A stretch of 64,000 bases of DNA from positions 5,080,501-5,144,500 of the forward strand of contig NZ_CP018632.1 in assembly GCF_002215215.1 (NCBI RefSeq). Reading direction: 5' to 3'. This document shows positions 21,938 to 53,319 of this stretch, piece by piece. A program made the translations under genes and the position numbers. This DNA comes from Granulosicoccus antarcticus IMCC3135 (lineage in GTDB: Bacteria; Pseudomonadota; Gammaproteobacteria; Granulosicoccales; Granulosicoccaceae). The first letter of the stretch is position 1, and each line of letters begins with the position of its first letter. The notes beneath the pieces were generated by a model that did no database searches, was not told the DNA's origin, and was given only the letters and a program-made list of their open reading frames with translations.

Positions 21938-24565
21938 ATGTTCACGATGACAACTGTCGTTCGACGGTTACTTTTACCCTGTACGATGGTGATGCTCACC
22001 TCGATAGGCGCAGCCCATGCCGCAACGTCACCCGATGGCGTATGGGAAAGTGCCGCGCAGCTACAGGTTTCGGCAGCGGAAAATGGTTCCAGCAACACTA
22101 ATGTACAGCCTACGGAATACAGCGCCTTCAGCCTGAACAAGGACCTGTTGGAATCGACTCTGGCAACTGCATCAGGCGAACAGATAGAGGGCTCATCTGG
22201 CGCATCCGGCCAGACCCTGATTGTACATCTGCCGATGCCGGATGGTTCGTTCATGGCATTCAATGTCGTAGAATCATCCATCATGGAACCTGACCTGGCC
22301 GCACAATTTCCGGAAATCAAAACCTATGCCGGTACCAGTGTCGAAGATGCCGCCATACAGGTGCGTCTGGATCTCACCCCTGCAGGCTTTCATGCACAGG
22401 TCATGATGGTTGGTCAGCGCTGGTATATTGATCCGCTATTCAAGGACAATTCCGAACTGTACGCCAGTTATTATCGAGAGAATCTGGACGGTGAAGTCCA
22501 ACAGTGCCTGGTGGGATCGGCAAATGAGTCAAGCCCCGTGAGCACATCAGCCCAAGCCTCGGGCGATAAATTACGCACCTACAGAATCGCAGTGGCAACC
22601 ACAGGTGAGTACGGCCTGTTTCATGGTGGCACAGTCTCGCAAACCATGTCTGCGGTAGTAACGACCATCAATCGGGTGAATGGCATTTATCAGCGTGAAC
22701 TGGCTATCGGTTTTACCTTGGTTGCTGGCAACAGCCAGCTGATTTTCGTGGACCCGACGACAGACCCCTTCACGGGCAACTTCAATGGTGACACTTTAAT
22801 GGAGGAATCGCAGACAGTCATTGATGCAAGAATAGGGTCAGCAGGTTACGACATCGGTCACACCTTCAGTACAGGGGCTGGCGGCGTGGCAGGACTGGGT
22901 GTCGTTTGTACAGAAGGCACAAAAGGCCAAGGCGTCACCGGCGGCCCCTCCCCGGTTGGCGACGCCTACGATGTGGATTTTGTGGCCCATGAAATTGGCC
23001 ATCAATTCGGTGGTAATCACACGTTCAATAGCGGTTTGGGCAGTTGCGAAGGTAATCGTAACGCATCGACAGCTTATGAACCCGGTGGTGGCACAACGAT
23101 TCAAGCCTACGCAGGCATTTGCGAAAGCAATGACCTGCAGCAGAACTCAGATGCCATTTTCCATTCAGAGAGCTTTCGAGAAATAAGGGCGTATATGGCC
23201 AATCCTGGCGGCGGCGGTGCCTGCGGCGTGGAGACAATTCTGAACAATGCCACTCCGACGGCTAATGCCGGCGCTGATTACACCATTCCTCGCGCCACCC
23301 CATTTGTACTGACTGGATCGGGGGCTGACTCCAATGCGGGTGATGTGCTGTCCTACCTATGGGAACAACGTAGCTTGGGCCCAAAAGCGGCACTGTCAGC
23401 ACCAGACGACGGCGCGATACCTTTGTTTCGCGTATTTACGCCGAGCGAATCTCCAACCCGTTTTCTGCCTCGCCTGTCCACACTGGTGACCAATGTACCC
23501 AGCAGCGCAGAAAAATTGCCGAATTTGGCTAGAACCATGAACTGGCGCTTGACGGTACGTGATAACAAAGGAGGCGTGCAGTCAGAGGATGCAGCAATCA
23601 CTGTCAACGCCGGCGCTGGTCCATTTACGGTAACCAGTCCTAATGGCGGAGAGAACCTGCAGGGTCTGGTTAACGTCACCTGGGATGTCGCCAATACCGA
23701 TACGGCACCAGTGAATGCGACTTTAGTCGATATCTTCCTGTCCGTTGATGGCGGTTTGACGTTTGATTTATCCAATCCCCTGGTCACTGGCACGCCCAAC
23801 GATGGCTCATATGACTTGACACTGCCAAGCCAAACCCAGAGCCAGGCAAGGATCATGGTCAAGGGCCACAACAATATATTCTTCGATATCTCAAACGGCA
23901 ATTTCAGCTTCACCCCACACGATGTGGGCAAGGTCATTGCGACCAATACCTGGCAACAGATTTCGTTACCGGCGGTTGCTCCTGCTGGCTCCAATACGGT
24001 AGCGGCAATAATAGCCGATGACATGACGGGCACACACCAAGTCGACTGGATGCTATTTGGCTACGATCCTGTAACTGAAATGTATACGGAACCAGCGCTG
24101 ACAGAGGTTATGGCCACTGGCATTGGTTACTGGATCATTCAGGTAAGCGGCAGTGATAAAATCCTCGACATGCCTGCTGGCAGCACTCCATTATCAACGT
24201 CAGCAAGTGCTGGTGATCCGAGGTGTTCCGATGCAGAGGGCTGCTTCCGGCTTTCTTTGACGACCACGGCGGGAACGTTCCTGTGGAATATGATCGGTAA
24301 TCCGTTCTATCAGACGCCTTCAGTCAGTAGCATTCGAGTGTCAACAACCGGTGGAATTTGTGGTGATACCGATGGATGCAGCATGACCGAGGCAGCTAAC
24401 GAAGCTGGTGCCAATGTACAGCACAACCAGTTCTGGACCTACAACGGCACGACATACGATATAGCGGGCGAGTCCAATACCCTTAGCCCTTGGACTGGTT
24501 ATTGGAACCCGGTATTGTCAGGTGCGCATGGACTCAGTCCTGTCATGCACATGCCACGACATTAA
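21938..24565 (+). CDS. Secreted reprolysin-like (M12B-type) metallopeptidase with C-terminal two-lobed module
   Basis: An 875-residue exoprotein. The signal peptide covers residues 1-29 (cleavage after AHA). A propeptide-like domain occupies about 30-205, and the metzincin catalytic domain about 210-430. The zinc motif HEIGHQFGGNH is at 351-361 and a Met-turn candidate lies near AYM at 418-420. An Ig-like or proprotein-type beta domain (NATPTANAGADY, about 435-560) is followed by another (SPNGGENL, about 565-660). The C-terminal module at about 670-870 is shared with other proteins here: WQQISLP, WMLFGYDP, GIGYWIIQVSG, the pair CSDAEGC, WNMIGNPF, CSMTEAA and LSPWTGYW. The enzyme is expected to act outside the cell. 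A GC-rich hairpin follows the gene. Confidence 0.88.
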   Translation: MFTMTTVVRRLLLPCTMVMLTSIGAAHAATSPDGVWESAAQLQVSAAENGSSNTNVQPTEYSAFSLNKDLLESTLATASGEQIEGSSGASGQTLIVHLPMPDGSFMAFNVVESSIMEPDLAAQFPEIKTYAGTSVEDAAIQVRLDLTPAGFHAQVMMVGQRWYIDPLFKDNSELYASYYRENLDGEVQQCLVGSANESSPVSTSAQASGDKLRTYRIAVATTGEYGLFHGGTVSQTMSAVVTTINRVNGIYQRELAIGFTLVAGNSQLIFVDPTTDPFTGNFNGDTLMEESQTVIDARIGSAGYDIGHTFSTGAGGVAGLGVVCTEGTKGQGVTGGPSPVGDAYDVDFVAHEIGHQFGGNHTFNSGLGSCEGNRNASTAYEPGGGTTIQAYAGICESNDLQQNSDAIFHSESFREIRAYMANPGGGGACGVETILNNATPTANAGADYTIPRATPFVLTGSGADSNAGDVLSYLWEQRSLGPKAALSAPDDGAIPLFRVFTPSESPTRFLPRLSTLVTNVPSSAEKLPNLARTMNWRLTVRDNKGGVQSEDAAITVNAGAGPFTVTSPNGGENLQGLVNVTWDVANTDTAPVNATLVDIFLSVDGGLTFDLSNPLVTGTPNDGSYDLTLPSQTQSQARIMVKGHNNIFFDISNGNFSFTPHDVGKVIATNTWQQISLPAVAPAGSNTVAAIIADDMTGTHQVDWMLFGYDPVTEMYTEPALTEVMATGIGYWIIQVSGSDKILDMPAGSTPLSTSASAGDPRCSDAEGCFRLSLTTTAGTFLWNMIGNPFYQTPSVSSIRVSTTGGICGDTDGCSMTEAANEAGANVQHNQFWTYNGTTYDIAGESNTLSPWTGYWNPVLSGAHGLSPVMHMPRH

Positions 24566-24624: not shown

Positions 24625-24784
24625 CCTGGTATTTATCTTTAACCTTTAAATCGTTACAACTTTCTAACAGTGCAAGCTGCACTTTTGGCTAATCTGTTGC
24701 GATTACAAGGTTACATACTGTTGACCTCGCCTCGAACTCCGTATAAATCTGTTTACGGTACCCAGACGACTTGTGCGACAGATT

Positions 24785-27484
24785 ATGATAACTATCCAGA
24801 CTCGATTTCATTCTCGGCCTAGATGGTGGGCCATTTTCAAAGTCCTGATTGCTTCCGCCTTCTTTATTACCGCCGATAATACGCTGGCTCAAGACCAGGC
24901 ATCCACAGTTGTGCCACACGATAGCTGGATGCAACTGGTGATTCCGGCAGATACGGCAGGACAAACAGTCGAACAACTATTCGCTGACGATCTGGATGCA
25001 GATTCATACAATCAAGATGGGGGCTGGGTTGTATTCACCTACGACCCGACAGAGAATGTTTACGACAATCCGGGGCTAAGCGGCACAATACCGCCAGGCA
25101 CAGGATTCTGGATGCTTCAGGTCACAGGCGTCGAAGTATCAATAGATGTCCCACTATCGTTGCCAACTCCAACAATAACGACATCCCTGCCTTGTATTGC
25201 AGCTGGAGGATGCTTCGCAAAGACACTATTATCGGGACCGAGCGTTACCAGCTGGAATCTACTTGGCTCACCATTCAAACGATTTCAGCCATTAGCGGGA
25301 CTCTTGGTCGGTAATGAGACTGCAGGAGGCCCGTGCTTTGAGGGCTGCAGTCTACAGGAGGCTGAAACAGAGAACTTATCATCAGCAGCTTTGTGGCACT
25401 ACGATTCAGAAAAAGAGAGCTATGTAGAATATGATCAAAGCTCTGGATTGGTACCGTGGCGAGGTTTTTGGATGGCAGCGCTTGAAGGTAGCAGTACAGG
25501 GACGACCAGACTCTACTTTCAAAATGTAATAGACCTTTATCAATTAGTCGCAAGCCCCACTGATTTTCTTACCAATACCCAAACCGAAGTTCGATTTCAA
25601 ATGCGCCTGTTACCCGGTGCTGAATTGCCTGGAAACGTTGCGCAATTATTTCGGACGACTGATGGCGTACCCTTCGGACAAGCATTGTGTACACTTAAGG
25701 ACGATGGAGCGCTGGATAACGGTGATGATCTTGCAGGAGACAAAGTCTACAGTTGTCTTTCACCGTTCATCGAATCATCTGAATCTACAGTTAATCTTGT
25801 AGTATCTGCGGAGATTGATGGTAATTTCAGCCCTGTTGCATCTATCGATTTGAACGCAATAGATCCGATAACCGATGAAGAAGCATCAATCGTAATCAGT
25901 GCCCAATCCTCAGCGCAACAGATTTGGAAGACCGAACTCGCTCAAGTCGGTGATACCGTGGCCGCTCGCGAGACTGCATCTGAAATTATCGCAAACCTGC
26001 CTGGAGTTCTTGATTCTGGAGTCGCAGAAGATGATACGACTATCTGGATAACCTACGAATCAGGTCTTACTACAGGCTTGATGCTGAACCCGGAAGGTAC
26101 TCGCGGATCGCAAGAAGATCGAGACTTCTACTCTACAACCGTAAATGTAGAAACCATTTCACCTGCAGTATTCGATCGACTCGACCCGCACGGTGAGCTC
26201 ACTCAGGGGCCGCTGGATGTGTATGCTGAGGAAACGGGGGAGAAGGTGGTAGGAAGCAGTCGAGTGCTTATCTGGGATGCATACAACTCTCAGTTCGCAC
26301 CTTTTGATGAAGGCCCTGATTTACGAACTCTATTTGAAGGCACCCAATGTCCGTTGTTTGATGTCAACTATCTTATTGACTCTCAAGCTACCGTAGACTC
26401 AGTTCGGCAATTCAATAAGTACGGCACTATCATACTGATCACACACGGAGCAGTAGACAAGGATGGGCAGGTAGTATTTCTAACCAGAGAGAACACTGGC
26501 GTATTTTCAATCATCGGCCATTCCATAGACTTACTGCTAGGTCGAATCTCCATCATGGGAGACGTGTACGCAATCAGACCAAGCTTTATTACATCCCTAC
26601 CCGGAAATTCTCCAGGCGCAATCATATACAACGGCTCATGCAGCAGTTCAGCCAACAGCTCGATGGCTGATGCTTTCGTCAGCGAGGGCGCTAGTAGCTA
26701 CTACGGGTATACACGCACAGTGAATTCCCCTTATGCCCAGAATGCCGCCAATCAACTCTTCGACAACCTAGTCAAGTCACTAGATACGACAGGCGATGCA
26801 TTCGCACCCGTCACACCAAAAATTGATCCAGTTACACCTTTTGCTACTTTTACGCTGACCAGCGATCCGACTACCAGTTATACCGGTGAGCTGACGAATG
26901 GCGAATTCGAGACGGGAGATCTGACAGGCTGGACTACTGAGGGAGATGGCCGGAGCATTGTCAATCTAGGCGAGTTCAGCCCACCCGGAGGCAATTTCAT
27001 GGGCATAATTTCTACTGGCCTGGGATTTACCACAAGCTCCGGGTCGTTGGCACAGAACTTTTGCCTTGCAGCTGACGCCACTGAGCTAACGTTTGATTGG
27101 AACTTCAATTCAGAAGAATTCGTAGAGTGGTGTGGACCTGAACATCCGTTCGACGATCCCTTCACAGTGGAAATGCTGACTGATTCAGGTACAGAGTTAT
27201 TGCTTTCCGAGACGATCGACACACTGTGCTCCACCGTCACGGCAAATTCGTTGGCTTTTGATGTCAGCGGGCCAGCTTGTGAAGTTTCTGAAGGCGTTGG
27301 CTTTGGCACGGGTGGCAATGATTGCACGGTCTACGGGACTGGGAATCTGATCCAAACAATAGACATCACCGCAATCGCAGCAAACAATGTTGGCAAGGGA
27401 GTAACATTGCGTTTCAGGAACTTTGATGAAGGCGATAGCCAGTATGACAGTGCAGTTCTAATCGACAATGTCAAGATCCGTTAA
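24785..27484 (+). CDS. Secreted protein: N-terminal two-lobed module plus caspase/CHAT-like domain
   Basis: About 899 residues from ATG 24785 (a GTG at 24773 is also open). The signal peptide ends near TLAQ, about residue 36. The two-lobed module follows at about 45-246: WMQLVIP, WVVFTYDP, GTGFWMLQVTG, the pair CIAAGGC, WNLLGSPF, CSLQEAE and LVPWRGFW. A beta-rich spacer leads to a region with ILITHG (His about 554) and NGSCSSS (Cys about 619). A His-Gly and a Cys 65 residues apart after a hydrophobic strand is how clan CD peptidases and CHAT domains look. The C-terminal 180 residues resemble a carbohydrate-binding or choice-of-anchor beta domain (NGEFETGDLTGW at its start, LIDNVKI at its end). 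Protease function is inferred from the dyad only. Confidence 0.72.
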   Translation: MITIQTRFHSRPRWWAIFKVLIASAFFITADNTLAQDQASTVVPHDSWMQLVIPADTAGQTVEQLFADDLDADSYNQDGGWVVFTYDPTENVYDNPGLSGTIPPGTGFWMLQVTGVEVSIDVPLSLPTPTITTSLPCIAAGGCFAKTLLSGPSVTSWNLLGSPFKRFQPLAGLLVGNETAGGPCFEGCSLQEAETENLSSAALWHYDSEKESYVEYDQSSGLVPWRGFWMAALEGSSTGTTRLYFQNVIDLYQLVASPTDFLTNTQTEVRFQMRLLPGAELPGNVAQLFRTTDGVPFGQALCTLKDDGALDNGDDLAGDKVYSCLSPFIESSESTVNLVVSAEIDGNFSPVASIDLNAIDPITDEEASIVISAQSSAQQIWKTELAQVGDTVAARETASEIIANLPGVLDSGVAEDDTTIWITYESGLTTGLMLNPEGTRGSQEDRDFYSTTVNVETISPAVFDRLDPHGELTQGPLDVYAEETGEKVVGSSRVLIWDAYNSQFAPFDEGPDLRTLFEGTQCPLFDVNYLIDSQATVDSVRQFNKYGTIILITHGAVDKDGQVVFLTRENTGVFSIIGHSIDLLLGRISIMGDVYAIRPSFITSLPGNSPGAIIYNGSCSSSANSSMADAFVSEGASSYYGYTRTVNSPYAQNAANQLFDNLVKSLDTTGDAFAPVTPKIDPVTPFATFTLTSDPTTSYTGELTNGEFETGDLTGWTTEGDGRSIVNLGEFSPPGGNFMGIISTGLGFTTSSGSLAQNFCLAADATELTFDWNFNSEEFVEWCGPEHPFDDPFTVEMLTDSGTELLLSETIDTLCSTVTANSLAFDVSGPACEVSEGVGFGTGGNDCTVYGTGNLIQTIDITAIAANNVGKGVTLRFRNFDEGDSQYDSAVLIDNVKIR

Positions 27485-28098: not shown

Positions 28099-29799
28099 TT
28101 AACGACTTAGAAACTCATCATTGACAACAATAAAATTACCGACATCTGACAGACTTACTCTCAACATCCGATCATTATCCCCAGACTCTCTATCAACAAC
28201 AAATAATTGAATCTCGTCGAAATCGTCTGGCAGTCTTACTTGTCTTGCTGAGGCCTCGTTCACTTTAGGCCATATGGCCAATACTTCGTCACTAGAGACC
28301 AGCACTAAAATCTCAGCACTGTCATTCAGCAACCAGACTGTAGAACTACTATCAGCCTCAGAACCAGCCGAGAGCACCGAATCTATCAGATCACTGCTCG
28401 GAGTCGTCAAAGTGGCATCAGATGAAACGGATAAAGAGGCCGTTGAAAAATTGCCCCGAGCATCGAAAGCAACTAAATGATAATTATGCTCACCCGAGAG
28501 TGCCGCTTGATCAAGAAAAATCTGGTTTGAGGAAGTACCAATGTAAACGCTATCCCGATAGATATTATAACCAGCGACTCCCTCATCGTCTGCTCCCTCT
28601 GCCCACGTCAACAATACAGCAGGAAGCCCTTCTACCTGACGCAAGAGTATCGCAGGTGGAGGTGTCGGCTTGGCGTAGTCGGGTTGTGATGCCGCATCAC
28701 TGGCAATACTGATCAAGGATCCAGAAATAAGGGAATAATTTCCATTACCATCGAACGCAGAGACCGCATACTGATAAACACTGCCACTAGTTACCTGAAC
28801 GTCACTGTAAGAGGCATCTTCAACGGTATCCAGATAAATCCCATTTCTGTAAATATCATACCCTAAGACATTTCCACTACTCCCAGCCTCCCAATAGAAT
28901 GCAATCTCATCGGGTGACTCGATTGAAATCTCAAGACCAATCGGTGTAGAGATGGATTCAGCCGAATTATTGTTTGAGTTAGGAGATTCCGACTCAACAA
29001 TATCCGGGCTTTCATCGGGTGCTTCTGGCGTAGCCGGTATCACTGGCGTAGCCGGTATCACTGGCGTAGCCGGTATCACTGGCGTAGCCGGTACCTCTGG
29101 CGTAGCCGGTACCTCTGGCGTAGCCGGTACCTCTGGCGTAGCCGGTACCTCTGGTGTAGCCGGTACCTCTGGTGTAGCCGGTACCTCTGGTGTAGCCGGT
29201 ACCTCTGGTGTAGCCGATACCTCTGGTGTAGCCGGTACTGTTGGTACCTCTGACTGCTGGATAATCACATTGAAAAAGACAGCTTCCGTTCTTTGATCAA
29301 AACGACCAACCTCAGCGACTGCTAGCTCCACTCTCCGGTTGCCAGCTGCGGCCTGCCCATCGGCCATTATGATTAGCCGCCGCACCGAATCATTACCACT
29401 CAATTCGAATAAAACGCCATCAATAGCTATACTGCCTGAATCACTACCGTTGAGAACCCACACAATATCATCGTTATTTGCGTCAGCTGCGACGGAACAA
29501 ACATCGGGAAGAGCCTGCGTCAGCGATTTACCGGCCTCCAATACTTGGCTTGCTTCTAAGGTAGTATTTCCTGAATAAACAGGGGCTTGAGCTGAGATAG
29601 TGTTGTTGCCACTACCTCCTGGTGCTGGTGGCGGTGCAAACGGCCCAGAAGGCTCACTTTCGGTCCCACACACTGCGGCCTGAAGATTGATTACAGGCAC
29701 AGATGCAAAAATTAAAATAGCCAGTGCAGAGTAGAGCTTACTTCTCGGAAAACTTCTGCTCACATCACTGATGTGAGCTTGGCGACGGTCCTTTCTCAT
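28099..29799 (-). CDS. Secreted fibronectin type III protein with a PATPEV repeat linker
   Basis: A 566-residue exoprotein starting at ATG 29799 with AGGA nine bases upstream. The signal peptide is near residues 22-41. The N-terminal domain contains [16 protein letters not shown] linker of about 13 six-residue repeats (PATPEV, drifting to PATPVI) follows. Two fibronectin type III domains come next, each with a YDIYRNG or YNIYRDS strand and a Y-x-x-x-AFDxxGN strand. The C-terminal domain ([12 protein letters not shown]) resembles the N-terminal one ([22 protein letters not shown]), as if the protein began and ended with the same fold. It probably spans or decorates the extracellular matrix. 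No catalytic motif is visible. Confidence 0.75.
29024..29246. repeat. 18-bp tandem repeat array within a secreted protein gene
   Basis: About 12-13 head-to-tail copies of an 18-base unit (plus-strand form GGCGTAGCCGGTACCTCT with small variants) encode PATPEV or PATPVI on the minus strand. Two sub-types occur in blocks (GGTATCACT and GGTACCTCT, and GGCGTA and GGTGTA), so the array expanded in stages. Every unit is a multiple of three, so copy-number change alters linker length without breaking the frame. Confidence 0.92.
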
Positions 29800-30652: not shown

Positions 30653-33067
30653 TCAGAGTACCGGTTTTTGCTGATACACCCTAACGTAGTCGATAATATA
30701 GTCCGCAGGTAGCTTTTGTTGATCTACAGGCTGAGTGTTGAATGACCCTCCCACTGCGAGATTTATAAGTACATACATGACCTGATACGCAACTGATGAA
30801 TCTCTGTAAGTGTGTTTTAGCTCTCCATCCACATACCAGGAAATGCTCTCATCGGTCCATTGCACTCCAAAAGTATGAAAATTATCACCAAAACCTTCTT
30901 CCTCACTCCCGCCCGTTGAGCGGAAGCTATTCTGAACAGAGACGCCATCGTCATTACGCCGATGATAGCTGTGGATTACCTCGCCAGGATTTTCGCCCAG
31001 AATTTCCATGATATCAATCTCGGGCTGCCGTCCAACGTAGTAGCGATTCAGTAACCAGAATGCCGGCCATAGCCCATCCCCAACTGGTATCTGTGCCTTG
31101 ATTTCAGCGTAGCCGTGCGTAAATTTGAACGAATCCCATGAGGTGATGATTCCAGATGTGTATTGCTTCTGGAAGTACCCTTCCTGAAAATAACTTGCAG
31201 GTTTGTTCGCCCAATAAGGGTCATTTCTGGGATATGCCGGTGGAGCTGTGTTGAGCGGAGTCTCTTCTCCTGCAATAGCACCACGTATCGTCAGATTACC
31301 GTTGGCCACTGTAAAGGGCGAATAGCCAGAGTTTGCATCTATCCCTAGAGCGTCTACGTAGTACTGCTCTTCCTTGTTAATCGTCAGGAAAGGCCCCCAG
31401 ATAAAACGTGTGTTCCACTTGGAAGCATCCAGACTTGCACCATTAAACTCATCGGAAAAAACCAATTCGTACTCATCCAGATCCAAAGGTACAGACATGT
31501 CTTTGGAATAAGCTCGAATGTAATCAATCTCGAATACTGCAGGAAATACCGTTGAACTATCCGGAGCCTGCGGCCATGAGCCACCCACGGCCAAATTAGC
31601 AATCAGGTACATTGCCTGATTGGCAATCTTGTATTCACTTCGATCGATGCGCCGGGTTTCCAATCCGTCTACATACCAGATTATCTGTGCCGGATCCCAC
31701 GACATGGAATACACATGAAAATCACGAGAAAAATCTGGACCTATAGTCTGGAAACTGGGAGTTCTGATTGCCTTCCAACCCGCCGGCACATCAAAGTAGT
31801 GGTAGGTATGATAAACCTCGTTGACATTCTGACCCAGAAATTCCATCACATCGATTTCGGGGACGTCTTCCACGTAGTGAGATGGCAATAACCAGAATGC
31901 AGGCCACAGACCTTTACCCGCAGGTACTTTCGCTCGTGTCTCTACATAACCGTGCGTGAATTTAAATGACTCATAGGAATTCAACAAACCCGACAAATAG
32001 TTGACATTGCTTTCAACGTATGGAGGATCACCTGCTTGGGGTGCACGGTATTCCAGATGCCGATCCCACACAGGGTCATCAGGATCAGGCATTGCTGGGG
32101 CAGCCCCTACTTCACTGGTCGCCGACGCCGTTATTTTCAATGTCCCTTCAGGTGTGAAGGAAAAGGGGTCATAGTTACTTCCAGCATGCATCCCCAAGGA
32201 GTCTATATAAACCTGTTCTTCCTGGTTGATAATCAGATACGGCCCCCATAGAAGACCCGTATTCCATTTATTGCTATCCAGCACCGGTCCATCAAATTCA
32301 TCACTGAATTCCAGCCGATACTGGGAAAGGTCTGGAATCTGACTTGGCGGCATCATCACTGGAACTTCCAATCGTGCGCCAATACCTTCAGCTCCCGGCA
32401 AAACAGCCACCCAAAATCCGGTCCAGGGCTGCGTCGTCATTCCTTCTGTTACAGTGTCGTAGCTGCCGGTTTCGTCAGTGTAGCTATATATACTGCTGAA
32501 CATGATGTCGGCTGCATAGGCCTCAGTCAATGTGCATCCTGCATTGCAAGCACCAGAGTCCGAAATCACTCTTAAACCTGAGATGTCCAACTCTGTTTCT
32601 CGAGGAAAACCGATCATGTTCCAAGCAACAGGGAGCCCTGCGATGGGCTTGAGTCCAACGACACTACAGCCAACAATAGAACTGCACCCCCGAACCTGGC
32701 GCGAGACCGGCGAATCCAGAGTTGCAGGCAACGTCAAGTTGACTGGAGAGCCTGTTGCCTGTATGAACCAATAGCCCTTTCCAGGCTCGAGTATCGTCTG
32801 GCGAGTCAACTCTACGTAGCCAAAGTCTCCCGTAGCCGGCAGTATCTCCCATCCAAACAACACCCAGGTCTTTGAGTAATCGTCTATGGAAAGATCATCG
32901 CCGAACAGGGATGCAATCGAACCCTCACTACCAGGATCTAACGGCAAACTGATCAAAGTCCAGCTGTCATCCTCGACAGTGTAAGCCGGGCTAGCGCTAG
33001 CCAGGTTCGAATAGCTGGATACTATGAAAATTACTGATAAAAACAACCAGGCTGACAACTTTCTCAT
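30653..33067 (-). CDS. Secreted tandem GH16 glycosidase with N-terminal two-lobed module
   Basis: 804 residues from ATG 33067 (an upstream in-frame TTG adds three codons). The signal peptide ends near SASA, about residue 27. The two-lobed module is at about 33-243: WTLISLP, WVLFGWE, GKGYWFIQATG, the pair CSSIVGC, WNMIGFP, CTLTEAY and TQPWTGFW. Two GH16 domains follow. The first starts LEFSDEFDGPVLD and has the catalytic motif EIDVME (E404, D406, E409). The second starts LVFSDEFNGASLD and has EIDIME (E683, D685, E688). Both keep the nucleophile and acid/base Glu of the E-x-D-x-x-E signature. GH16 enzymes cleave beta-1,3/1,4-linked glycans such as laminarin, lichenan, agar, or succinoglycan. 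Here trimming of the exopolysaccharide itself or degradation of an algal glucan are both possible. Confidence 0.92.
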   Translation of the reverse strand: MRKLSAWLFLSVIFIVSSYSNLASASPAYTVEDDSWTLISLPLDPGSEGSIASLFGDDLSIDDYSKTWVLFGWEILPATGDFGYVELTRQTILEPGKGYWFIQATGSPVNLTLPATLDSPVSRQVRGCSSIVGCSVVGLKPIAGLPVAWNMIGFPRETELDISGLRVISDSGACNAGCTLTEAYAADIMFSSIYSYTDETGSYDTVTEGMTTQPWTGFWVAVLPGAEGIGARLEVPVMMPPSQIPDLSQYRLEFSDEFDGPVLDSNKWNTGLLWGPYLIINQEEQVYIDSLGMHAGSNYDPFSFTPEGTLKITASATSEVGAAPAMPDPDDPVWDRHLEYRAPQAGDPPYVESNVNYLSGLLNSYESFKFTHGYVETRAKVPAGKGLWPAFWLLPSHYVEDVPEIDVMEFLGQNVNEVYHTYHYFDVPAGWKAIRTPSFQTIGPDFSRDFHVYSMSWDPAQIIWYVDGLETRRIDRSEYKIANQAMYLIANLAVGGSWPQAPDSSTVFPAVFEIDYIRAYSKDMSVPLDLDEYELVFSDEFNGASLDASKWNTRFIWGPFLTINKEEQYYVDALGIDANSGYSPFTVANGNLTIRGAIAGEETPLNTAPPAYPRNDPYWANKPASYFQEGYFQKQYTSGIITSWDSFKFTHGYAEIKAQIPVGDGLWPAFWLLNRYYVGRQPEIDIMEILGENPGEVIHSYHRRNDDGVSVQNSFRSTGGSEEEGFGDNFHTFGVQWTDESISWYVDGELKHTYRDSSVAYQVMYVLINLAVGGSFNTQPVDQQKLPADYIIDYVRVYQQKPVL

Positions 33068-33462
33068 GATAAACAATACGTCTTTATAGAAGTAACTGCG
33101 GCATAGACCTCACCGCTATTTGATTTGTAACAAGTTGCAACTAATGACCAAGAAATACTCATCTATGAATGCTCTAAAGATGGGTTTGAAGCAGCTAGTG
33201 AAGCGCTCATCATCTGCAAAAGTATCAGCGATACCCGACAAATTGTACTTGTTCTGTGAAACTAAAATTCAGGCAATTTTACAGAAACAGCTGCATCTAA
33301 CTAAAAATACAGGCGCCTGTCACAGGACAAAAATGCGATCCAACACGTGATGCCCTCAAAGAGGCTCGCAATGTGACTTGCAACACACAATTCCGGTCTG
33401 CAGAAATTATTGAACAAGCTTAATTGCCGTTGAAAAGCAACAATCACCTTTGAGTTGAAACA
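33068..33462. other. Intergenic region between the GH16 gene and the nucleotidyltransferase gene
   Basis: These bases divide the divergent GH16 and nucleotidyltransferase genes and must hold both promoters. A 76-codon plus-strand frame at 33120-33350 has no ribosome binding site and no protein-like composition. I see no hairpin or repeat of note. Confidence 0.3.
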
Positions 33463-34668
33463 GTGCCTCAAGCAAGCAACCATTCCAACATCCTACTGAG
33501 CGAGATTCTCAGAACATCTGAGAAGCATCGACTTCAGCCGACGCTGTGCGACTCGCGCATTGATTGGTCAAGCTTCCTGCAGGCTTCCGGCGATCGCCTG
33601 TTAACGCCCATCATAGCTAGAAAGATATGCACCCCGGAACTATCGTCATTCATTCCTGATGACGTAGTCGGTGCCTTGCAAATGATCCGCGACTACAACC
33701 TGACGAGGAATCAACGCCTGATTGAAACATTCGTGCGGATAGCCAGCGTCTTGAATCAGGGAAATATCCGTCCACTACCCTTGAAAGGCACCAGCCTTCT
33801 ACTGTACGGAATATACCCCGATCAGGCGGACCGCATAGTTAGCGATATCGATATCCTGATCCAGCCCAGCGAAGTGAAAAAAGCCTTACAGATACTTAAA
33901 CAACATGATTTCGTTCAACGAAGCAATCCGTTTTTAGGCGATAAGGGACACTGGGACGATCGATTTGAAACAATCGACATAGATGATTTTCGGCACAAAC
34001 CAAGCGAGCAAAACTATCACTTGCCGCCAATAAAGGAACATCAGGATGCTGAATTTTATATAGAAATCCACACCCGTCCTTGCAAGGGACACGGTTCAAT
34101 GGAAATGGAACTGACTAGATTGGCCGCTAATTCGACTGCGCTGGATTCAAAAAACGGCAGCTTGTTTCGCCGACCCGGATTAAGTTTCACACTGATGCAC
34201 ACAGCCCATCATATGTTGATACAAGACCGCCTGATGTACCTGGGGCTGACAGATCACCGACATTTACTGGATATCCATCACCTGATGGGACACATTGTGG
34301 ATAGCGGGGAAACCGCGGAACTCCAGGAGATGGCAGAATCAACGCATTTCAATGATTTATCCACTTTCGCGTTGTGGCAATGCCAACAAACACTGGATGT
34401 TGCTTATCAGTTTGACTTTAAAACCTCCCAAACAGGGAAGCAATGGATAGTCAACTTTACCGCAATTACAAAAAACAATGCCCTGCAACGGTTCAGGCGC
34501 GCGTGGTCAGCCATTAACACTACAATCACAAAATTTTTTAGCATAAAAGCGCTGCGGCACGCCTTCGGAGACATGCCAGTGACCAAGTCATTGCCACTTT
34601 ACACGCGCTATCAATGTCAACGAGCTGTACATGCTGTAACGCTAGCCGTCAAAAGAAAACGCGGCTGA
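33463..34668 (+). CDS. Nucleotidyltransferase family protein (NTP_transf_5 type)
   Basis: A 401-residue cytoplasmic protein from GTG 33463. The motif LPLKGTSLLLYG followed by RIVSDIDILI matches the G-S and D-x-D metal-binding signature of the uncharacterised nucleotidyltransferase family PF14907. The C-terminal part contains His-rich segments (FTLMHTAHHMLIQDR and DHRHLLDIHHL), also typical. Members of this family recur beside PqqD-like and HPr-kinase-like genes in EPS and peptide-modification clusters, though their substrate is not established to my knowledge. Here it converges on the small Tat-like peptide gene (80 bases between their ends), with the PqqD-HprK fusion beyond it. That neighbourhood suggests a shared role in modifying or tailoring a peptide or a glycan carrier. 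Confidence 0.82.
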   Translation: MPQASNHSNILLSEILRTSEKHRLQPTLCDSRIDWSSFLQASGDRLLTPIIARKICTPELSSFIPDDVVGALQMIRDYNLTRNQRLIETFVRIASVLNQGNIRPLPLKGTSLLLYGIYPDQADRIVSDIDILIQPSEVKKALQILKQHDFVQRSNPFLGDKGHWDDRFETIDIDDFRHKPSEQNYHLPPIKEHQDAEFYIEIHTRPCKGHGSMEMELTRLAANSTALDSKNGSLFRRPGLSFTLMHTAHHMLIQDRLMYLGLTDHRHLLDIHHLMGHIVDSGETAELQEMAESTHFNDLSTFALWQCQQTLDVAYQFDFKTSQTGKQWIVNFTAITKNNALQRFRRAWSAINTTITKFFSIKALRHAFGDMPVTKSLPLYTRYQCQRAVHAVTLAVKRKRG

Positions 34669-34748
34669 ACAACTACCGCGACTTCGGAACCATCACCTGG
34701 CTACTAAAGAGTGAGCCTTCGTAGAAAGATTGAAATGTGACAGTCTAA

Positions 34749-34940
34749 CTAGGGATTACAACCCTTTGGAGGACATGGTGGAGAGAATGCAAGCGACTTG
34801 TCACTGAACAAGATACCTGCGATGACTGGTGAAGCGTAAGCCAGCTTCGTAATTGCCTTTCGACGACTTTTTGACACTTCTGGCAAGCTAACACCAGACG
34901 GCTCGTCTTGATTGCCTTTCTTACCTTCTGCACTATCCAT
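34749..34940 (-). CDS. 63-residue Tat-like peptide with Pro/Cys-rich tail
   Basis: GGAG lies nine bases before the ATG. The peptide has a hydrophilic leader, then KSRRKAITKLAY, which resembles a twin-arginine signal. A hydrophobic stretch (ASPVIAGILF) follows. The tail after a possible cleavage site (SLAF) is short and ends PPCPPKGCNP with two Cys. It lies directly downstream (253 bases) of the PqqD-HprK fusion on the same strand. A short leader-plus-Cys/Pro-core peptide beside a PqqD-like recognition domain is how a modified peptide precursor would look. It could also be a small secreted structural peptide. No family recognised. Confidence 0.7.
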   Translation of the reverse strand: MDSAEGKKGNQDEPSGVSLPEVSKSRRKAITKLAYASPVIAGILFSDKSLAFSPPCPPKGCNP

Positions 34941-35193
34941 TTGTCAGAACTCCAACACTTAACACGGGGAATAAAAAGATAGGGAGATACTACCACCGAA
35001 CAAACAGATGTCAATCATCTCACAGCCTGAAAATGCTCAAGAAATTGCGTTTTGGATAACTACATCAAGTACCGATTGACGGACCACTATTCTGGGCAAT
35101 TCGTATTAGAGATCTACCACTAGACTCAAACAAAAAAACACCTCTCAAGCACCCTATCAAGCCAACTACAGCACTAAATTGAGTAGCCGTATT

Positions 35194-36345
35194 TTACCCA
35201 CACCACTCCCAGGAAGAGACGGACTGAAGCAACAAATCATCAATCACTGCTTCAACTTGTGACAATGAGGAATATGTCAACTTGTAGCAAGGCACCATAT
35301 TTACCCAGGACACCAGCGACTCCAGAATCTCAGGCTGCACAGGTTGCTCAACTGAACAACCACTTTTGATAATCCCTTCGAACACACTGACTTTTGATAA
35401 GCATTCAACCGCAACCGTTTTCTGTGCTTCACAGTACTCAGGGACAATCAAGAGCCTGCAGGAAACAGGACTTTTTTGAACCTGCCCATCTCTTGGCGAC
35501 AAATACCGGAACTGTCTTTCCTCGTTACCATAACGAGTCAAATGGCTTAGCTGCGGAAAATAATTCGCCAAAACAGGCCATGATCCAGCTTTTACTGACA
35601 AACTGACCGGCACTGGCAGCAACTCCGCGGTTTTAGCCAGCATAGGCACTGCATCGTCATTCAAAAATGCATAGCCACGATGCATCAGGTAAGCAGCCAA
35701 TGTTGTTTTACCGCTGCCCCCATGAGCAGGCATCAATATAGCGTCATTACCTCGTGCAACGGCCGAAGCGTGGAACATGATTGTTCCTGCATGACTGCGG
35801 GCCACTAAACCACTTATTTCCCGCAAGCATTTTATTGCCGTATCTGCAACTGTATACCCTGTATCCAAGGTCTCACCCTCACCCACGATAGGGAAATTAC
35901 GACCAGAAGAGTAAACATCAAGTTTTACAGTCCGCACACATGAACCTTCTGAGGATTCCAGGGTGAACATCTCATTCAGCAAATCACATAAACCGCAAAG
36001 CTCTGAGGCCACCTCAATTCGAACTCCCGGCAAATACAGACAAGTTCGCTCCTGAGCATCAATCTCTCTGGATACTGTAAAGCCAACATCTGGCAAATAG
36101 GACTCCGTGGCCTTCACAATCAAGCTGTCTGCGGAAGGTAGCGCTGCCAAAAATTGCACACTGTCTATCATCGCCGTCTCAATATCAACGTCGAATTGAT
36201 CAACGATCGAGCACGCGATCAGCTCAGCGCCAGCTCCGTCCAGCGCCAAGGACAGCATACTGGCAGCCACTTGATTCAAGACCCTGACCTGCCCCGTATC
36301 TTCGTCCAGACACACATAGTGATCTGCAAGTGAGAATTTTTTCAC
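35194..36345 (-). CDS. PqqD-like domain fused to an HPr-kinase-like P-loop domain
   Basis: A 383-residue protein. Residues 1 to about 75 (YVCLDEDTGQVRVLNQVAASM, then VDQFDVDIETAMIDSVQFLA) match the PqqD fold used by RiPP enzymes to bind leader peptides. Residues about 185-383 match HPr-kinase-related proteins: FHASAVARGNDAILMPAHGG leads into the Walker A GGSGKTT (209-215), and LNDDAVPM (228-235) follows as the acidic strand. Two Cys pairs (CGLC at 117-120) occur between the domains. HprK-related proteins with separate PqqD genes are known from EPS and peptide clusters; here both are one polypeptide. The partner peptide gene follows downstream. Kinase substrate unknown. Confidence 0.82.
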   Translation of the reverse strand: MKKFSLADHYVCLDEDTGQVRVLNQVAASMLSLALDGAGAELIACSIVDQFDVDIETAMIDSVQFLAALPSADSLIVKATESYLPDVGFTVSREIDAQERTCLYLPGVRIEVASELCGLCDLLNEMFTLESSEGSCVRTVKLDVYSSGRNFPIVGEGETLDTGYTVADTAIKCLREISGLVARSHAGTIMFHASAVARGNDAILMPAHGGSGKTTLAAYLMHRGYAFLNDDAVPMLAKTAELLPVPVSLSVKAGSWPVLANYFPQLSHLTRYGNEERQFRYLSPRDGQVQKSPVSCRLLIVPEYCEAQKTVAVECLSKVSVFEGIIKSGCSVEQPVQPEILESLVSWVNMVPCYKLTYSSLSQVEAVIDDLLLQSVSSWEWCG

Positions 36346-36692: not shown

Positions 36693-37949
36693 TCAAGACA
36701 TCGTCCAGCCATCCGCCTTTAGCCTACGATAGGCATGATAAACCACAACACACGACAACAACTCGCTCAAAAAGATCGACATCGCAGCTCCCGTCGACGA
36801 TAGCCAATAAATCAATGGAATCCCAACAACAACTGACACCACAAAAGCAGCAAGTGCAGCATTTACCTGAGAACTATAATCACCAACACTTATCAAAGGT
36901 ATAAGCATGGAATTTTTCAATGCAAATACAGGGATTATCAAGATAAGTAGATTAAGAACGTGTATCTCACCAGCATAAGCAGCGCCCAGAAAAGTAACCG
37001 TGAAATAGCCCCCGGATAACAACAGTATCACCGAGGACAAGGTCGCCATTAGCGCCACAGACCAAACGAGCACCCCGTGAATTACCTCGAACGATTGTTT
37101 ATCTGTCTTATCATATTTCGACATCATTGGGAAAACAACCATAGGAATAAAATGCAACAAACCACAAAGTGATACAACTGGCCTGAAAAAAGCGTTGAAA
37201 ATACCTGCATCATAGGACCCGTAGATCGAAACCAAGGCGATCGAAGGGACCAAAAGGTACCCCATTCCGAATATTCCTGAAAGAAGAAACTTGATTGATG
37301 AGCGATACACCAGCAAGGCCTGGTTGGTACTGCATGTCATTCTGAGCAGCGGCAACAACCTTCCTTTCAAGATAATAAAAAGCACAAACGAATTCAGAAG
37401 GTAAGCAACCACGATAGCAATTGCAGCACGGAGCACATCACTTGAATCAGAAACGAATAAAAAAGATGAAAATACAACAGCAATTAACAGAAAATTCCCG
37501 ACAGCTATATAGGCATAGCGCTGCAGCCCTCTGAACACCCACTCCGTGGTAAGCGACATCGCCAAAATATAAAAACTGAAGATCATGAACACATGTTTAT
37601 ATTCGTCAGAGAACGTTCCGAAAAACATGAGTGTATTAATAGAAAAAAAGAGCAACAAACCTACGAAAAATCTTACCGTTATTATTGGATTTACAATATC
37701 TGATAACTGTTCACTCGTTGCACGCGACACCTCCCGAGTTCCATGCACCGACGAACCGACCTCCAGCAACAAGGCAATATATACGGTTAAGGAGAAGGCG
37801 ACTGAAAACACACCATAAGATGCCGGAAGCAAAGTTTTCGCAAAATATATATTAGCAAATAAAACACTCGCCTTGCCCAAAGCCTCCGCTAGAAAGGCCC
37901 AGACAAAATTCGAAGCAAACAATCGATACACAGCAATATTATATTTCAT
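36693..37949 (-). CDS. wzx: Wzx-type oligosaccharide flippase
   Basis: A 418-residue integral membrane protein with about 12 hydrophobic helices and short charged loops. The N-terminal part (FLAEALGKASVLFANIYFAK, then ASYGVFSVAFSLTVYI) has the pattern of the polysaccharide-biosynthesis/MATE-like flippase family. It would flip the undecaprenyl-linked repeat unit from the cytoplasmic to the periplasmic face. It is the last gene of the EPS/O-antigen run before the PqqD-HprK gene and is AT-rich compared with genes such as manC, as wzx genes often are. Confidence 0.88.
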   Translation of the reverse strand: MKYNIAVYRLFASNFVWAFLAEALGKASVLFANIYFAKTLLPASYGVFSVAFSLTVYIALLLEVGSSVHGTREVSRATSEQLSDIVNPIITVRFFVGLLLFFSINTLMFFGTFSDEYKHVFMIFSFYILAMSLTTEWVFRGLQRYAYIAVGNFLLIAVVFSSFLFVSDSSDVLRAAIAIVVAYLLNSFVLFIILKGRLLPLLRMTCSTNQALLVYRSSIKFLLSGIFGMGYLLVPSIALVSIYGSYDAGIFNAFFRPVVSLCGLLHFIPMVVFPMMSKYDKTDKQSFEVIHGVLVWSVALMATLSSVILLLSGGYFTVTFLGAAYAGEIHVLNLLILIIPVFALKNSMLIPLISVGDYSSQVNAALAAFVVSVVVGIPLIYWLSSTGAAMSIFLSELLSCVVVYHAYRRLKADGWTMS

Positions 37950-38409: not shown

Positions 38410-39756
38410 CTATCTGTTTCTTATCCGCGGATCACTTCTCAAATATAGAAACACTATCAAGATCCACGCAAAGCCGCCAAAGCCATTTATCGAGAACATG
38501 AATGCTTCGCCCATACCTAGAATAAAAATTGTCAAAATAAGCGATAACGCCCCCAGAGAACCATGCCTTGCAACTCTTGATATAATAAACCAGGCTAACA
38601 ACATAAACGCAGTAACCCCAGCAATTCCAGACTCCTCCAGCAGACCAATATAGATATTAGTCTTTTCAACTGGAGCGCTAATCGGAATATTGAAATACGG
38701 ATCATGGTAAACATCCATAAATGCAGGAATACTAGCCAGGCCAAAACCAATCCCGCCAACGGGGTGATTAAAAAAGTTGTTCAAGGAAATTCTCAATGCA
38801 TCCGAACGAGTCTCAACAGAATCTACAATTTGCATCGCACCTTCCCGCCCACCTTTGATCATGAAGTCGAACACGGCGGAACCGAGATCAACCCCGTATA
38901 CGAGAGTAACTACTGATAGAAACACGATTAATCCCAACATGACTATGGGTATTTTCTTGAAAACGCCCAATCTTGTACTTGCCTGGGTAAAAAATTTGTA
39001 GAAAACTGCAAAGAAAAACCCCAGAGCACAGGCCATGACACCTGTTCTTGACTCTGATAAAAACAAAGTGATGATCGCGGCAAGCAACATGAAAACGAGG
39101 AAGGCGGATATTCGCTTTTTTTCGATCAACTCACCGAACATGAAGGCTCCATAAACCGCTACGAACAAACCATACAACTGAGGCTGATTCAAGATTCCTT
39201 GAAACCCCCTTCCGTTCAAATAATATCCGACGTACAGCAAAGTCAACGGCAAACTGGATACGATAATAACCACGAAAACGGCGTTGAACCAAGCCCACCA
39301 ATACTCATACCGATAGAACGAATCGACAAAACACATTATGATAGCCAGCACTCCCAGTAGAAATGTAAATATTTTAAACATTGATACATCCAGGGCGTAG
39401 CTATTGAACAAGGAGGTCACTATCAAGCTCGACACAAAAAGAAGCAACGACCCTATTAACAATTTTATGCATCTACTGTACTTCCTGAATGCAAAAGTAC
39501 GAATACCGGAGATCAAGGCTCCCATCACAATCAACCATTTCAAGAAAACGAATGAGCCTGCTCCTGCGTAGAGTCCTGTGTTCAATGAAGAAACAACAGA
39601 TACCAATACTAGAGACTCTATCGCCATTTTGGTCCCACATAAAGACCAAACAAACAGTGACAAGTACACAACTGCAAAACCAGGACTTCCTGCCAATGGT
39701 AGTGTTAAGGCAACAATAATTTTCGGATAAATAGTCAGATAAATATTTTTTCTCAC
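38410..39756 (-). CDS. wzy: Wzy-type polysaccharide polymerase
   Basis: A 448-residue integral membrane protein with about 12 hydrophobic segments, similar in character to O-antigen polymerases/ligases. The motif GRGFQGILNQPQLYG in mid-protein is the Arg-Gly/Asn-Pro type loop of the Wzy/WaaL superfamily, and FLSESRTGVMA resembles the conserved S-R-T segment that follows. It would join repeat units in the periplasm. It lies between wbuB and wzx. Its poor conservation and AT-rich composition are normal for wzy. A second member of this superfamily is at 1-988, so the window holds two, belonging to different polymer systems or serving polymerase and ligase roles. Confidence 0.85.
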   Translation of the reverse strand: MRKNIYLTIYPKIIVALTLPLAGSPGFAVVYLSLFVWSLCGTKMAIESLVLVSVVSSLNTGLYAGAGSFVFLKWLIVMGALISGIRTFAFRKYSRCIKLLIGSLLLFVSSLIVTSLFNSYALDVSMFKIFTFLLGVLAIIMCFVDSFYRYEYWWAWFNAVFVVIIVSSLPLTLLYVGYYLNGRGFQGILNQPQLYGLFVAVYGAFMFGELIEKKRISAFLVFMLLAAIITLFLSESRTGVMACALGFFFAVFYKFFTQASTRLGVFKKIPIVMLGLIVFLSVVTLVYGVDLGSAVFDFMIKGGREGAMQIVDSVETRSDALRISLNNFFNHPVGGIGFGLASIPAFMDVYHDPYFNIPISAPVEKTNIYIGLLEESGIAGVTAFMLLAWFIISRVARHGSLGALSLILTIFILGMGEAFMFSINGFGGFAWILIVFLYLRSDPRIRNR

Positions 39757-45305: not shown

Positions 45306-46838
45306 TTATTTCGCGAACGGCAACAACAACCCTGCTTGTGTGCTGTTCACCCCCTCCAGCGCCCCTACCCAAAAACCCTGCCAAGGGCTGAAACTGTCAC
45401 CAACGCTTACTTCATCGTATAACTGAGTCTGAGAATTGTAGTTATAGAATACATCAAAAATCAACGACTTATCATAAGCCTCAGTCAATGAGCATCCAGA
45501 GTCATCTGCACAGATTCCACCCTCAGATTGTGCCCGCAACTCATCAAACTGGAGCTCCTCGCCATAGCTGAACGGGTTTCCCACCATATTCCAGGTGATT
45601 TCGGCATCAGCATTGCCGGAAAGCTCAATCTCATAACAGCCGTGTGAGTCAGCGCAAGCCGTGCTTGTCACCGGATGTAAATCATTGATTGAACGCGGCA
45701 GATCCAAAGTGACAACATTTCCAGAAATTTGCGTGATCCAGAAACCCTGTCCCGGCTCAAGTCGTCCGGATGCAGTTATATCGGTATAAGCATTGGGTAC
45801 AAGAGGATCATGGGTGTATACGATCCAGCTGGCGCCGTATTCGCCGGGTATGTCGTCGCCAAAAACATCATCCACCGTAAGATCCGGGGGCATTGGACAC
45901 GGCAGGCTCAACATCTCCCACACATTGTCTGCCAGAACGAACTCTGTCGGGGTGCTCATATAGTCAGGGATTGAGTCACGAGCATGCACGAACACATCCA
46001 ATTGACTATTTGTGTCGTTAGCTACCAGGGAAGCACTGCCACTGGTAAAAACAATCTCGCCTCCGTCATCAGAGATATCTTCAACCCCCGTCCTCATGAC
46101 TCTCCCTTCAGATTCGGTCCGCCCGAAGTCTAGCTGCCTGGTCTCGCCAGTCAGACGATCATGAACATACCCCATACTGCCAAACACCACAAAACGACCA
46201 TCGCCACTGACTTCTGGGTCATTACCCGGGAAAGTCTGTCCATCACAGGTAGATGTATTAACAGGAGAACTCGACTGACCTAGTTCGGTCACAGTGCGTA
46301 ACTCCTCACCTGCATAACTGCCTGTAAACGCAATGACGGAACCATTGGCACTAATATTAAAAGGATAACCACTCGCAGCACCAGCGCCTCCGCTCACGGG
46401 CTGTCCGTCTGTACCGACACTTGCAATTTGCGCCGTCAGCGTTGCAATATCATAGACAAATACATCGTAACCAGCAGCCCCTCCCTGCCCGCTGATGTTG
46501 TTGAAACCCGAATAAGCTATCTTGCGCTCCCATCACCACTGATTGTCGGCCAACGTGGATTGGTTCCACCACCGCCTAATGCAACCAATACCGGATTGGT
46601 GCTTATGGCCACAAGCTCACCAGAAGAGACAACAAACAGATACACAATTCCTGAGGACATAAAAACAATCTGATTGCCATCGTCTGACACATCAGGTGCA
46701 TCACCAGACAGCTGACCTGAAGGCAAATCACCAGCAACCAATACTGACCCGTATTGTTTCGTCAGCCATGCCATGGCTGGCAAACATGGAGCCGCTCAGG
46801 ATTAATCCGCCAATCAAGGTCTTTGGAAATGAATTCAA
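45306..46838 (-). pseudogene. PD40 beta-propeller protein with C-terminal two-lobed module, broken by two frameshifts
   Basis: Three consecutive minus-strand frames make one protein. Frame 1 starts near TTG 46838 (signal peptide NSFPKTLIGGLILSGSM, then ADETIRVS) and runs out near 46760. Frame 2 continues with AGDLPSGQLSGDAPDVSDDG (TolB/PD40 repeat) to a stop at 46517. Frame 3 continues with IAYSGFNNISGQGG and runs to 45306. Each break needs a one- or two-base change; the second is at GGGAGCGCAAGATAG near 46520. The C-terminal part (45309-45930) is the same two-lobed module as in the secreted proteins at 19-33 kb: WEMLSLP, WIVYTHDP, GQGFWITQISG, CADSHGC, WNMVGNPF, CSLTEAY and FSPWQGFW. Sequence error is possible but two errors in 250 bases would be unusual. 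Confidence 0.75.
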
Positions 46839-53234: not shown

Positions 53235-53319
53235 GTAACCGGTCATCTAGAGGCGTCCTTCCGCACGGAGCATTGCCTCGCTACTCTGACAGCCTCACCA
53301 ACACCAAGAGGCAATCGAG

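Follow-up and report, generated by a model that had tools for sequence, protein, structure and literature searches.

Three neighbouring genes in the stretch of the Granulosicoccus antarcticus IMCC3135 genome analysed here (the window, 64,000 nucleotides; contig NZ_CP018632.1, positions 5,080,501 to 5,144,500) probably form a self-contained peptide-modification system. It would consist of a kinase that carries its own RiPP recognition element (RRE; RiPP, ribosomally synthesized and post-translationally modified peptide), a 63-residue peptide of its own, and a finishing nucleotidyltransferase (NTase). We assign this reading a probability of about 0.58. It builds on the domain make-up of the enzymes, their intact catalytic residues, the recurrence of the gene set in other bacteria, a leader shared by the peptides, and a serine that keeps its register to that leader. 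The features concerned are the following.

35194–36345, minus strand: RRE (PqqD)–HprK-like fusion kinase, 383 residues with a GTG start, assigned from PF05402 and TIGR04352 matches and from profile matches in the PDB
36139–36318, minus strand: RRE/PqqD domain of the fusion (residues 10–69), assigned from PF05402 and, by profile, TbiB1 and TfuB1
35233–35808, minus strand: HprK-like kinase domain of the fusion (residues 180–371), with H192, G210-S-G-K213-T-T, D230-D231 and K252
34950–34953, minus strand: GGAG in the sequence, 9 nt ahead of the ATG of the peptide
34749–34940, minus strand: precursor-like peptide of 63 residues (the companion), assigned from its open reading frame (ORF), leave-one-out leader models and co-occurrence of its family
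34788–34871, minus strand: leader of the peptide (residues 24–51), KSRRK followed by a hydrophobic core with Pro38 (YASPVI) and ending in SLA
34752–34787, minus strand: tail of the peptide (residues 52–63), FSPPCPPKGCNP, with Ser53 as candidate phosphosite, Cys56 and Cys61
33463–34668, plus strand: PF14907 nucleotidyltransferase (NTP_transf_5), 401 residues, with K108-G-T, D128-x-D130 and E201

In the proposed mechanism, the N-terminal RRE of the fusion would bind the leader of the 63-residue peptide, and the HprK-like part of that chain would phosphorylate a hydroxyl residue just past it, with Ser53 as the likeliest site. A sugar or a nucleotide would then be placed on the phosphate by the PF14907 enzyme, as reported for PsmN in pseudomycoidin. 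Because the leader has features of twin-arginine translocation (Tat) signals and an AxA-like end, the modified product would probably be exported and cut to the tail of about 12 residues, in which a Cys56–Cys61 disulfide may close. The peptide is very probably the substrate of the enzyme, since the same gene set recurs in many distant bacteria. On our best reading, the chemistry is the known one of HPr-rel-A systems and lasso-peptide kinases, and the new element is a one-chain enzyme paired with a short peptide. The original prediction, made from the letters of this stretch, had held that the peptide is the substrate and that leader binding and phosphoryl transfer are joined in one chain; co-occurrence, the domain assignment and the precedent of BsfB1 and BsfK lend this partial support, phosphorylation of the peptide being a predicted step.

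The PqqD-like N-terminus and the HprK-like remainder with GGSGKTT that this prediction described were both recovered by family searches. Residues 10–69 matched PF05402 with 25.9 bits, above the gathering score of 23.4, and residues 180–371, with the P-loop at G210–K213, matched HprK-related kinase A (HprK_rel_A, TIGR04352) with an E value of 4e-24. At 85.1 bits the kinase stays below the TIGR04352 cut-off of 200, and at 12.7 bits against a cut-off of 240 it is not, by score, a member of the HPr kinase/phosphorylase family TIGR00679. Against the PDB, the N-terminus of a profile of 14 kinases found the lasso-peptide B1 proteins TbiB1 (5v1u, 6e-11) and TfuB1 (6jx3, 4.5e-8), which are the nearest solved relatives of the RRE. 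Around the P-loop, this profile found the HPr kinases 3tqf (3e-6), 1jb1 (7e-5) and 1ko7 (1e-4), in a range of scores shared by unrelated P-loop proteins (midasins, 1e-5). An AlphaFold model of the fusion, computed from a two-sequence alignment, reached a pLDDT of 31 and was not used.

Seven columns are invariant in the 14 kinase sequences: H192, G212, K213, T215, L216, D230 and K252. The GxGK[ST] loop was present in 17 of 19 kinases checked, and a His 21 residues before and an Asp 17 residues after the P-loop Lys were in place in 17 of 17. H192, K213, D230 and D231 of the window kinase have the spacing printed for the H-K-D-D motif of BsfK (H148, K169, D186-D187). The window kinase thus keeps its catalytic residues, and it is the single kinase match (E ≤ 0.001) in the 7.78-Mb, one-contig genome.

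The NTase, also as predicted, belongs to PF14907, which it matched with an E value of 1.8e-32 and 113.3 bits against a gathering score of 31.2, and it is the only PF14907 match in the genome (E ≤ 0.01). Its residues K108, R124, D128 and D130 are invariant in four aligned proteins, and Glu201 lies within an EIH stretch; a PDB search with it returned no match. The gene runs opposite to that of the peptide, so that the two stop codons face each other.

The 63-residue peptide with KSRRK and a PPCPPKGCNP tail is present as it had been described, separated from the kinase ORF by a gap of 253 bases. At E ≤ 1 it has no family match in Pfam and NCBIfam, TAT models included. Leader models built without it nevertheless place it first among the 668 ORFs of the window (E 5e-4 and 7e-4; in the second of these models, the runner-up had an E value of 0.002).

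The same arrangement is found elsewhere. Plasmids of Methylobacterium tardum (L024), Parasedimentitalea (L026) and Ensifer (L027) each carry a fusion, an NTase and a small ORF with a twin-arginine (RR) leader; the listed annotation, which has gaps for plasmids and no entries for L027, does not include this ORF. In Sinorhizobium chiapasense, Rhizobium sp. 007 and Rhizobium sullae (L159–L161) an NTase and an RR-leader ORF likewise lie beside the fusion. When five fusions were searched against 398 genomes of the phylum, 40 regions were taken (the 33 best below the window's own match and 7 from lower down), and these held an NTase-like ORF in 36 cases and an accepted companion in 27. The window fusion alone, searched against 143 genomes including its own, matched 21 others, none of them across the RRE part, with alignments starting at residue 110 in G027 and from 155 on in the rest; one of the 21, G122, was later shown to hold a fusion (L105). 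A search of genome contigs with the window fusion protein and a scan of viral contigs with the L066 kinase returned nothing.

For a fresh test, a leader model built from 28 RR-leader ORFs was fixed in advance and then run on 40 new regions. These were the best of the listed places in a sample of 369 genomes of the window's class, apart from the already used genomes G240 and G160 and from G686. At E ≤ 0.01 the model matched 23 of the 40 loci, and every one of these matches fell on the kinase strand in the 1 kb upstream of the kinase. With the threshold relaxed to E ≤ 5, 35 loci had their best match in that zone, where 1.97 are expected by area (the 35 include a weak non-companion match at L111 and exclude L123, whose companion ties for best), and 30 further weak matches lay outside it. 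Companions were accepted at 37 of the 40 loci, 35 of them by the model (with L123, without L111, and with the RR position of L113 set by hand) and two, L111 and L117, by eye; of the three others, two (L106, L138) are situated close to the end of a contig, and L137 lacks a companion. Applied at the same scale to 40 random 16-kb stretches from the first-set genomes, the leader model matched one locus at E ≤ 0.01; an NTase model matched none there.

For the reverse test, 385 genomes from the class to which G308 belongs were searched; this class is taken to be Alphaproteobacteria because the genes of G308 resemble those of Ensifer. Full-length fusions (E ≤ 1e-30, one split by a contig end) were found in 10 genomes and companion matches (E ≤ 0.001) in 16, the companion being present in 10 of 10 genomes with the fusion versus 6 of 375 others. 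After removal of four genomes that had supplied query rows, it was present in 6 of 6 fusion genomes (p 2e-10). Three of the six companion genomes without the fusion had weak matches (G893, G944, G1032). Several genomes encode more than one companion (four in G858, three each in G1135 and G174). Taken with the fresh loci, these counts uphold the co-occurrence of peptide and fusion that the original prediction had set as its own test.

A table of 102 loci, which unlike the 40-locus test includes loci used for model building, extends this to kinases with a separate PqqD gene. Of the 32 fused loci, 28 have an NTase no more than 3 kb away and 24 a leader match (E ≤ 0.05) at a distance of up to 2 kb; for the 70 split loci the numbers are 61 and 46. 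L170 is not classed as fused although it aligned to the fusion model from position 17, and L173 counts as lacking a companion although one was found at its contig end. The recurrence of HprK-related systems with separate PqqD genes, claimed beforehand as established, is confirmed, and an RR-leader companion accompanies these systems as well. It is usually an ORF of about 130–300 residues and not a peptide (each length was taken from the longest ORF and is thus an upper bound).

Some loci carry the parts in one chain, which suggests that they belong together. L171:4081-6282(+) encodes an NTase–RRE–kinase protein of 733 residues, whose PqqD domain scores 22.2 bits, just below the Pfam threshold of 23.4, and 1e-15 with the RRE model built here. 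L074:7468-9588(+) encodes an HprK-like kinase and a PF14907 NTase in 706 residues, with an RR-leader ORF upstream, and L106:728-2656(+) encodes a family-2 glycosyltransferase (GT2)–RRE–kinase chain of 642 residues. The genome of L171 also carries a normal fusion with companion (L170).

As to the companions of the split kinases, five that were scanned (L069, L077, L079, L081, L097) reached no Pfam or NCBIfam cut-off. Many (L107–L142, e.g. L130:6493-7140(-)) carry CTxSGxxSGNLS...SPGYWK...HAVAALLNA, and others end in or near SCWxS(F/L) (L077, L081, L090) or GFTC(Y/F)ASLQMPR (L079, L087).

One Arg and one Pro are invariant in 18 aligned companions, and the common form of the leader is RRxFLxKxGKFAxxTPPAVTLLL. 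These leaders resemble Tat signals in the RR, the hydrophobic core and the AxA-like end. Their best 15-residue hydropathy averages 1.52 for 25 companions versus 1.48 for 14 Tat signals of G. antarcticus, a comparison made without L154, the sole Tat match with a core Pro; the window peptide, with RR at 26–27, has a value of 1.47, inside the range of 1.13–1.74 of the 14 signals. They differ from Tat signals in the proline, which lies 8–18 residues after the RR in 61 of 67 companions versus 1 of the 15 Tat signals that TIGR01409 finds in the G. antarcticus genome, a contrast that is partly circular because the initial companion search pattern required a proline. In the fresh set alone, 32 of 37 companions have the core Pro (four of the 35 model matches and L117 lack it; L111 has it). 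The earlier description of the peptide as Tat-like fits the RR, the core hydropathy and the AxA-like end, whereas no TAT model matches the peptide and 14 of the 15 Tat signals lack a core Pro; a standard Tat substrate was set aside on these two grounds. At least four leaders contain YxxPx[LIV], namely YASPVI in the window, YTAPVL (L024), YVAPTL (L097) and YTPPAV (L103), and YxxPxL is the motif given for the Bsf lasso leaders (PMC10368454).

Of 25 companions from fused-type loci, 23 have a serine at one of the positions Pro+15 to Pro+19; the set excludes L064, which is nearly identical to L063, and L168, which is truncated at the end of its contig. Shuffling each stretch gave 13.2 on average and reached 23 in 0 of 5000 rounds, a calculation that overstates the enrichment because the 25 companions are related; with one companion per group, of our own choice, the count is 15 of 17. 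Serine is rare at Pro+20 to Pro+24 (8/25). In the window peptide, Ser53 lies 15 residues after Pro38. The corresponding distance in BsfA, from the leader Pro at −14 to the phosphorylated core Ser3, is 16 residues (PMC10368454). By analogy with BsfK, Ser53 is the likely phosphosite; phosphorylation of a C-terminal Ser, as in paeninodin, is ruled out, as the window peptide ends in Pro. The tails after the serine differ widely between clades and are alike within some. A GWGDKNHxHxGPPG-like tail is common to the rhizobial-type companions L027, L058, L062, L159, L160 and L161, and two tail Cys are found in the window, L060, L066, L067 and L104.

The HPr-rel-A system (TIGR04352 with PqqD_rel_X, TIGR04353) shares with the window the homologous kinase, a PqqD domain and an adjoining NTase and RR-leader companion. 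It differs in that RRE and kinase are fused in the window, that the kinase reaches 85 of 200 bits, and that the companion has 63 instead of 130–300 residues. The window has no separate small PqqD gene (TIGR04353) beside its kinase, the domain being fused; among split loci, L087 scores 51.1 bits against the TIGR04353 cut-off of 35 and L117, at 33.1, is just below. A PF14907 NTase does stand beside the kinase in the window, an association measured here and lying outside the NCBI models. The M. tardum protein WP_238199978.1 ('PqqD family peptide modification chaperone', plasmid pMt-1) is likewise a fusion with an NTase and an RR-leader ORF between them, but it is 24.8% identical to the window fusion and has a second, separate PqqD gene nearby. 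That gene, L024:6124-6477(-), is of the lasso type, lies just upstream of the NTase and is absent from the listed annotation.

The closest biochemical precedent comes from lasso peptides. According to PMC10368454, the RRE protein BsfB1 greatly accelerates phosphorylation of BsfA core Ser3 by BsfK. The Bsf pair resembles the window in that an RRE aids an HprK-like kinase, in the H-K-D-D spacing, in a Ser soon after the leader and in YxxPx[LIV]; unlike the window system, it comprises two proteins, and its BsfA substrate is a precursor of the lasso kind, accompanied by a B2 protease, where the window has an RR leader and its genome has no B2 match. For pseudomycoidin, reviews (PMC8498205, PMC9266682) describe phosphorylation by PsmK, after which the nucleotidyltransferase-like PsmN either adds one or two hexoses to the phosphoserine or nucleotidylates it first, the reviews allowing both routes. 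PsmK/PsmN thus place a kinase and then a nucleotidyltransferase on one peptide and, with paeninodin PadeK, share the His-Lys-Asp-Asp motif; they differ in the C-terminal Ser, the lasso fold and the origin in Firmicutes, and PsmN is a putative counterpart of the PF14907 protein. A lasso system was rejected for the window because the B2 leader peptidase PF13471 has no match in the genome at E ≤ 0.01. An asparagine-synthetase-like cyclase is not among the 25 commonest of 62 window families, no search aimed at a cyclase having been made.

Several observations weigh against a self-contained system of kinase, peptide and NTase. Among the 18 aligned companions, none diverges more than the window peptide (16% identity to the first row), whose leader RRKAITKLAYASPVIAGIL has three residues fewer ahead of the Pro than the common form, and the A9 profile misses this peptide genome-wide in its own genome at E ≤ 0.05. 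Ala207 of the window kinase stands at the position of BsfK G163, a residue important according to its authors (PMC10368454), and the kinase domain of the L171 chain has lost its P-loop. Methylosinus L025 has a fusion without NTase or companion nearby, and in 8 of the 32 fused loci the leader model matches nothing within 2 kb. G889, G896 and G1053 have strong companion matches and no kinase at E ≤ 1e-30, weaker kinases not having been searched for. Companions of G174 and G501 lie tens of kilobases or more from the kinase, so a single enzyme may act in trans on more than one peptide. Serine is also common at Pro+10 to Pro+14 (19/25). Finally, replacing Y, P and L of YxxPxL in BsfA did not stop phosphorylation, as stated in PMC10368454, and the shared Pro therefore need not be an RRE contact.

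The three-gene set sits in a polysaccharide (sugar-coat) locus, with two such genes listed below, the first of them next to the kinase.

36693–37949, minus strand: flippase, PF01943, which we take to be of Wzx type
38410–39756, minus strand: O-antigen ligase/polymerase, PF04932, which we take to be of Wzy type

Relatives of the window's polysaccharide-type proteins lie near 6 of 30 fused (p 0.04) and 15 of 64 split loci (p 0.004) versus 1 of 40 random regions, based on hand-made lists that differ slightly from the 102-locus table and on random regions of 16 kb, where many loci are shorter. The link is real and recurrent but partial, confined to a minority of loci, and the system is therefore not an obligate part of polysaccharide synthesis.

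This link bears on an alternative that we regard as unlikely, in which the companion is an ordinary small protein exported by Tat or Sec, the RRE-kinase is a chaperone or checkpoint that times export, and the true kinase substrate lies elsewhere, e.g. in the polysaccharide pathway. The RR, the core hydropathy (1.52 vs 1.48), the AxA-like end and the excess of polysaccharide-type genes near fused and split loci over random regions (6/30 and 15/64 vs 1/40) would all fit, but the peptide has no match to any family at E ≤ 1, the TAT models included, the core Pro separates 61 of 67 companions from all but one of 15 Tat signals, and neither the tightly linked NTase nor the post-leader Ser is explained. 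Quite improbable is that the NTase makes the main mark, by nucleotidylating the peptide or the kinase, with the kinase domain being regulatory: in 89 of 102 loci an NTase neighbours the kinase, and the L171 chain keeps an NTase domain despite its broken P-loop, yet GxGK[ST] is retained in 17 of 19 kinases and the His and Asp in 17 of 17.

We consider it very unlikely that the product is a lasso-like or otherwise cyclised RiPP for which the kinase performs a tailoring step, with protease and cyclase encoded elsewhere. An RRE nearest to lasso B1 proteins and YxxPx[LIV] in the leaders of the window, L024, L097 and L103 speak for it; opposed to it are the lack of PF13471 in the genome at E ≤ 0.01, the absence of this family from the 25 commonest of 114 Pfam families in 99 fused-locus neighbours, and the size of the split-system companions, mostly about 130–300 residues. 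There is similarly little chance that the three genes are remnants or independent and the peptide an incidental ORF. The divergence of the window peptide and the placement of the NTase on the other strand could be understood in this way, but a GGAG precedes the peptide's ATG, the peptide ranks first of 668 ORFs in the leave-one-out models, the sole NTase and the sole kinase of a one-contig genome adjoin, and their catalytic residues are intact.

A more speculative extension of the kinase–peptide–NTase system, offered tentatively and with some doubt, posits a class of RiPP-like systems whose leader has a double duty: its proline-marked core would be held by the RRE during phosphorylation of the Ser, which the PF14907 enzyme would then cap with a sugar or nucleotide, and its twin arginines would afterwards direct Tat export, placing phosphoglycosylated peptides at the cell surface, in some cases together with a polysaccharide.

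We found no study of the cassette of HprK-related kinase, PqqD and PF14907 protein in the open-access literature, and this widespread cassette now gains a concrete candidate substrate family. If the proposed system is real, lasso-peptide kinase chemistry reaches a large proteobacterial set of short peptides and of proteins that look exported, and the link between peptide modification and surface polysaccharide becomes testable. The one-chain enzyme would then also be a convenient tool, with leader binding and phosphorylation in a single protein.

Apart from these genes, several secreted-looking proteins of the window, as unlike as a GH16 enzyme and a metallopeptidase, seem by eye to have a DSWxxISLP...GYWI...WNMIGNPF-type stretch in common (19251–20969, 21938–24565, 24773–27484, 30653–33076 and 45306–46397). 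The minus-strand ORF at 28099–29799 contains an 18-base tandem repeat at 29024–29238, with 11.9 copies and 96% matches, which encodes ATPEVP repeats. Transposase-like genes, with coordinates read from the ORFs, lie at 14346–15821, 52278–53246, 54120–55676 and 56541–58349, and four window proteins match IS66, which suggests that the polysaccharide locus is interrupted by mobile elements.

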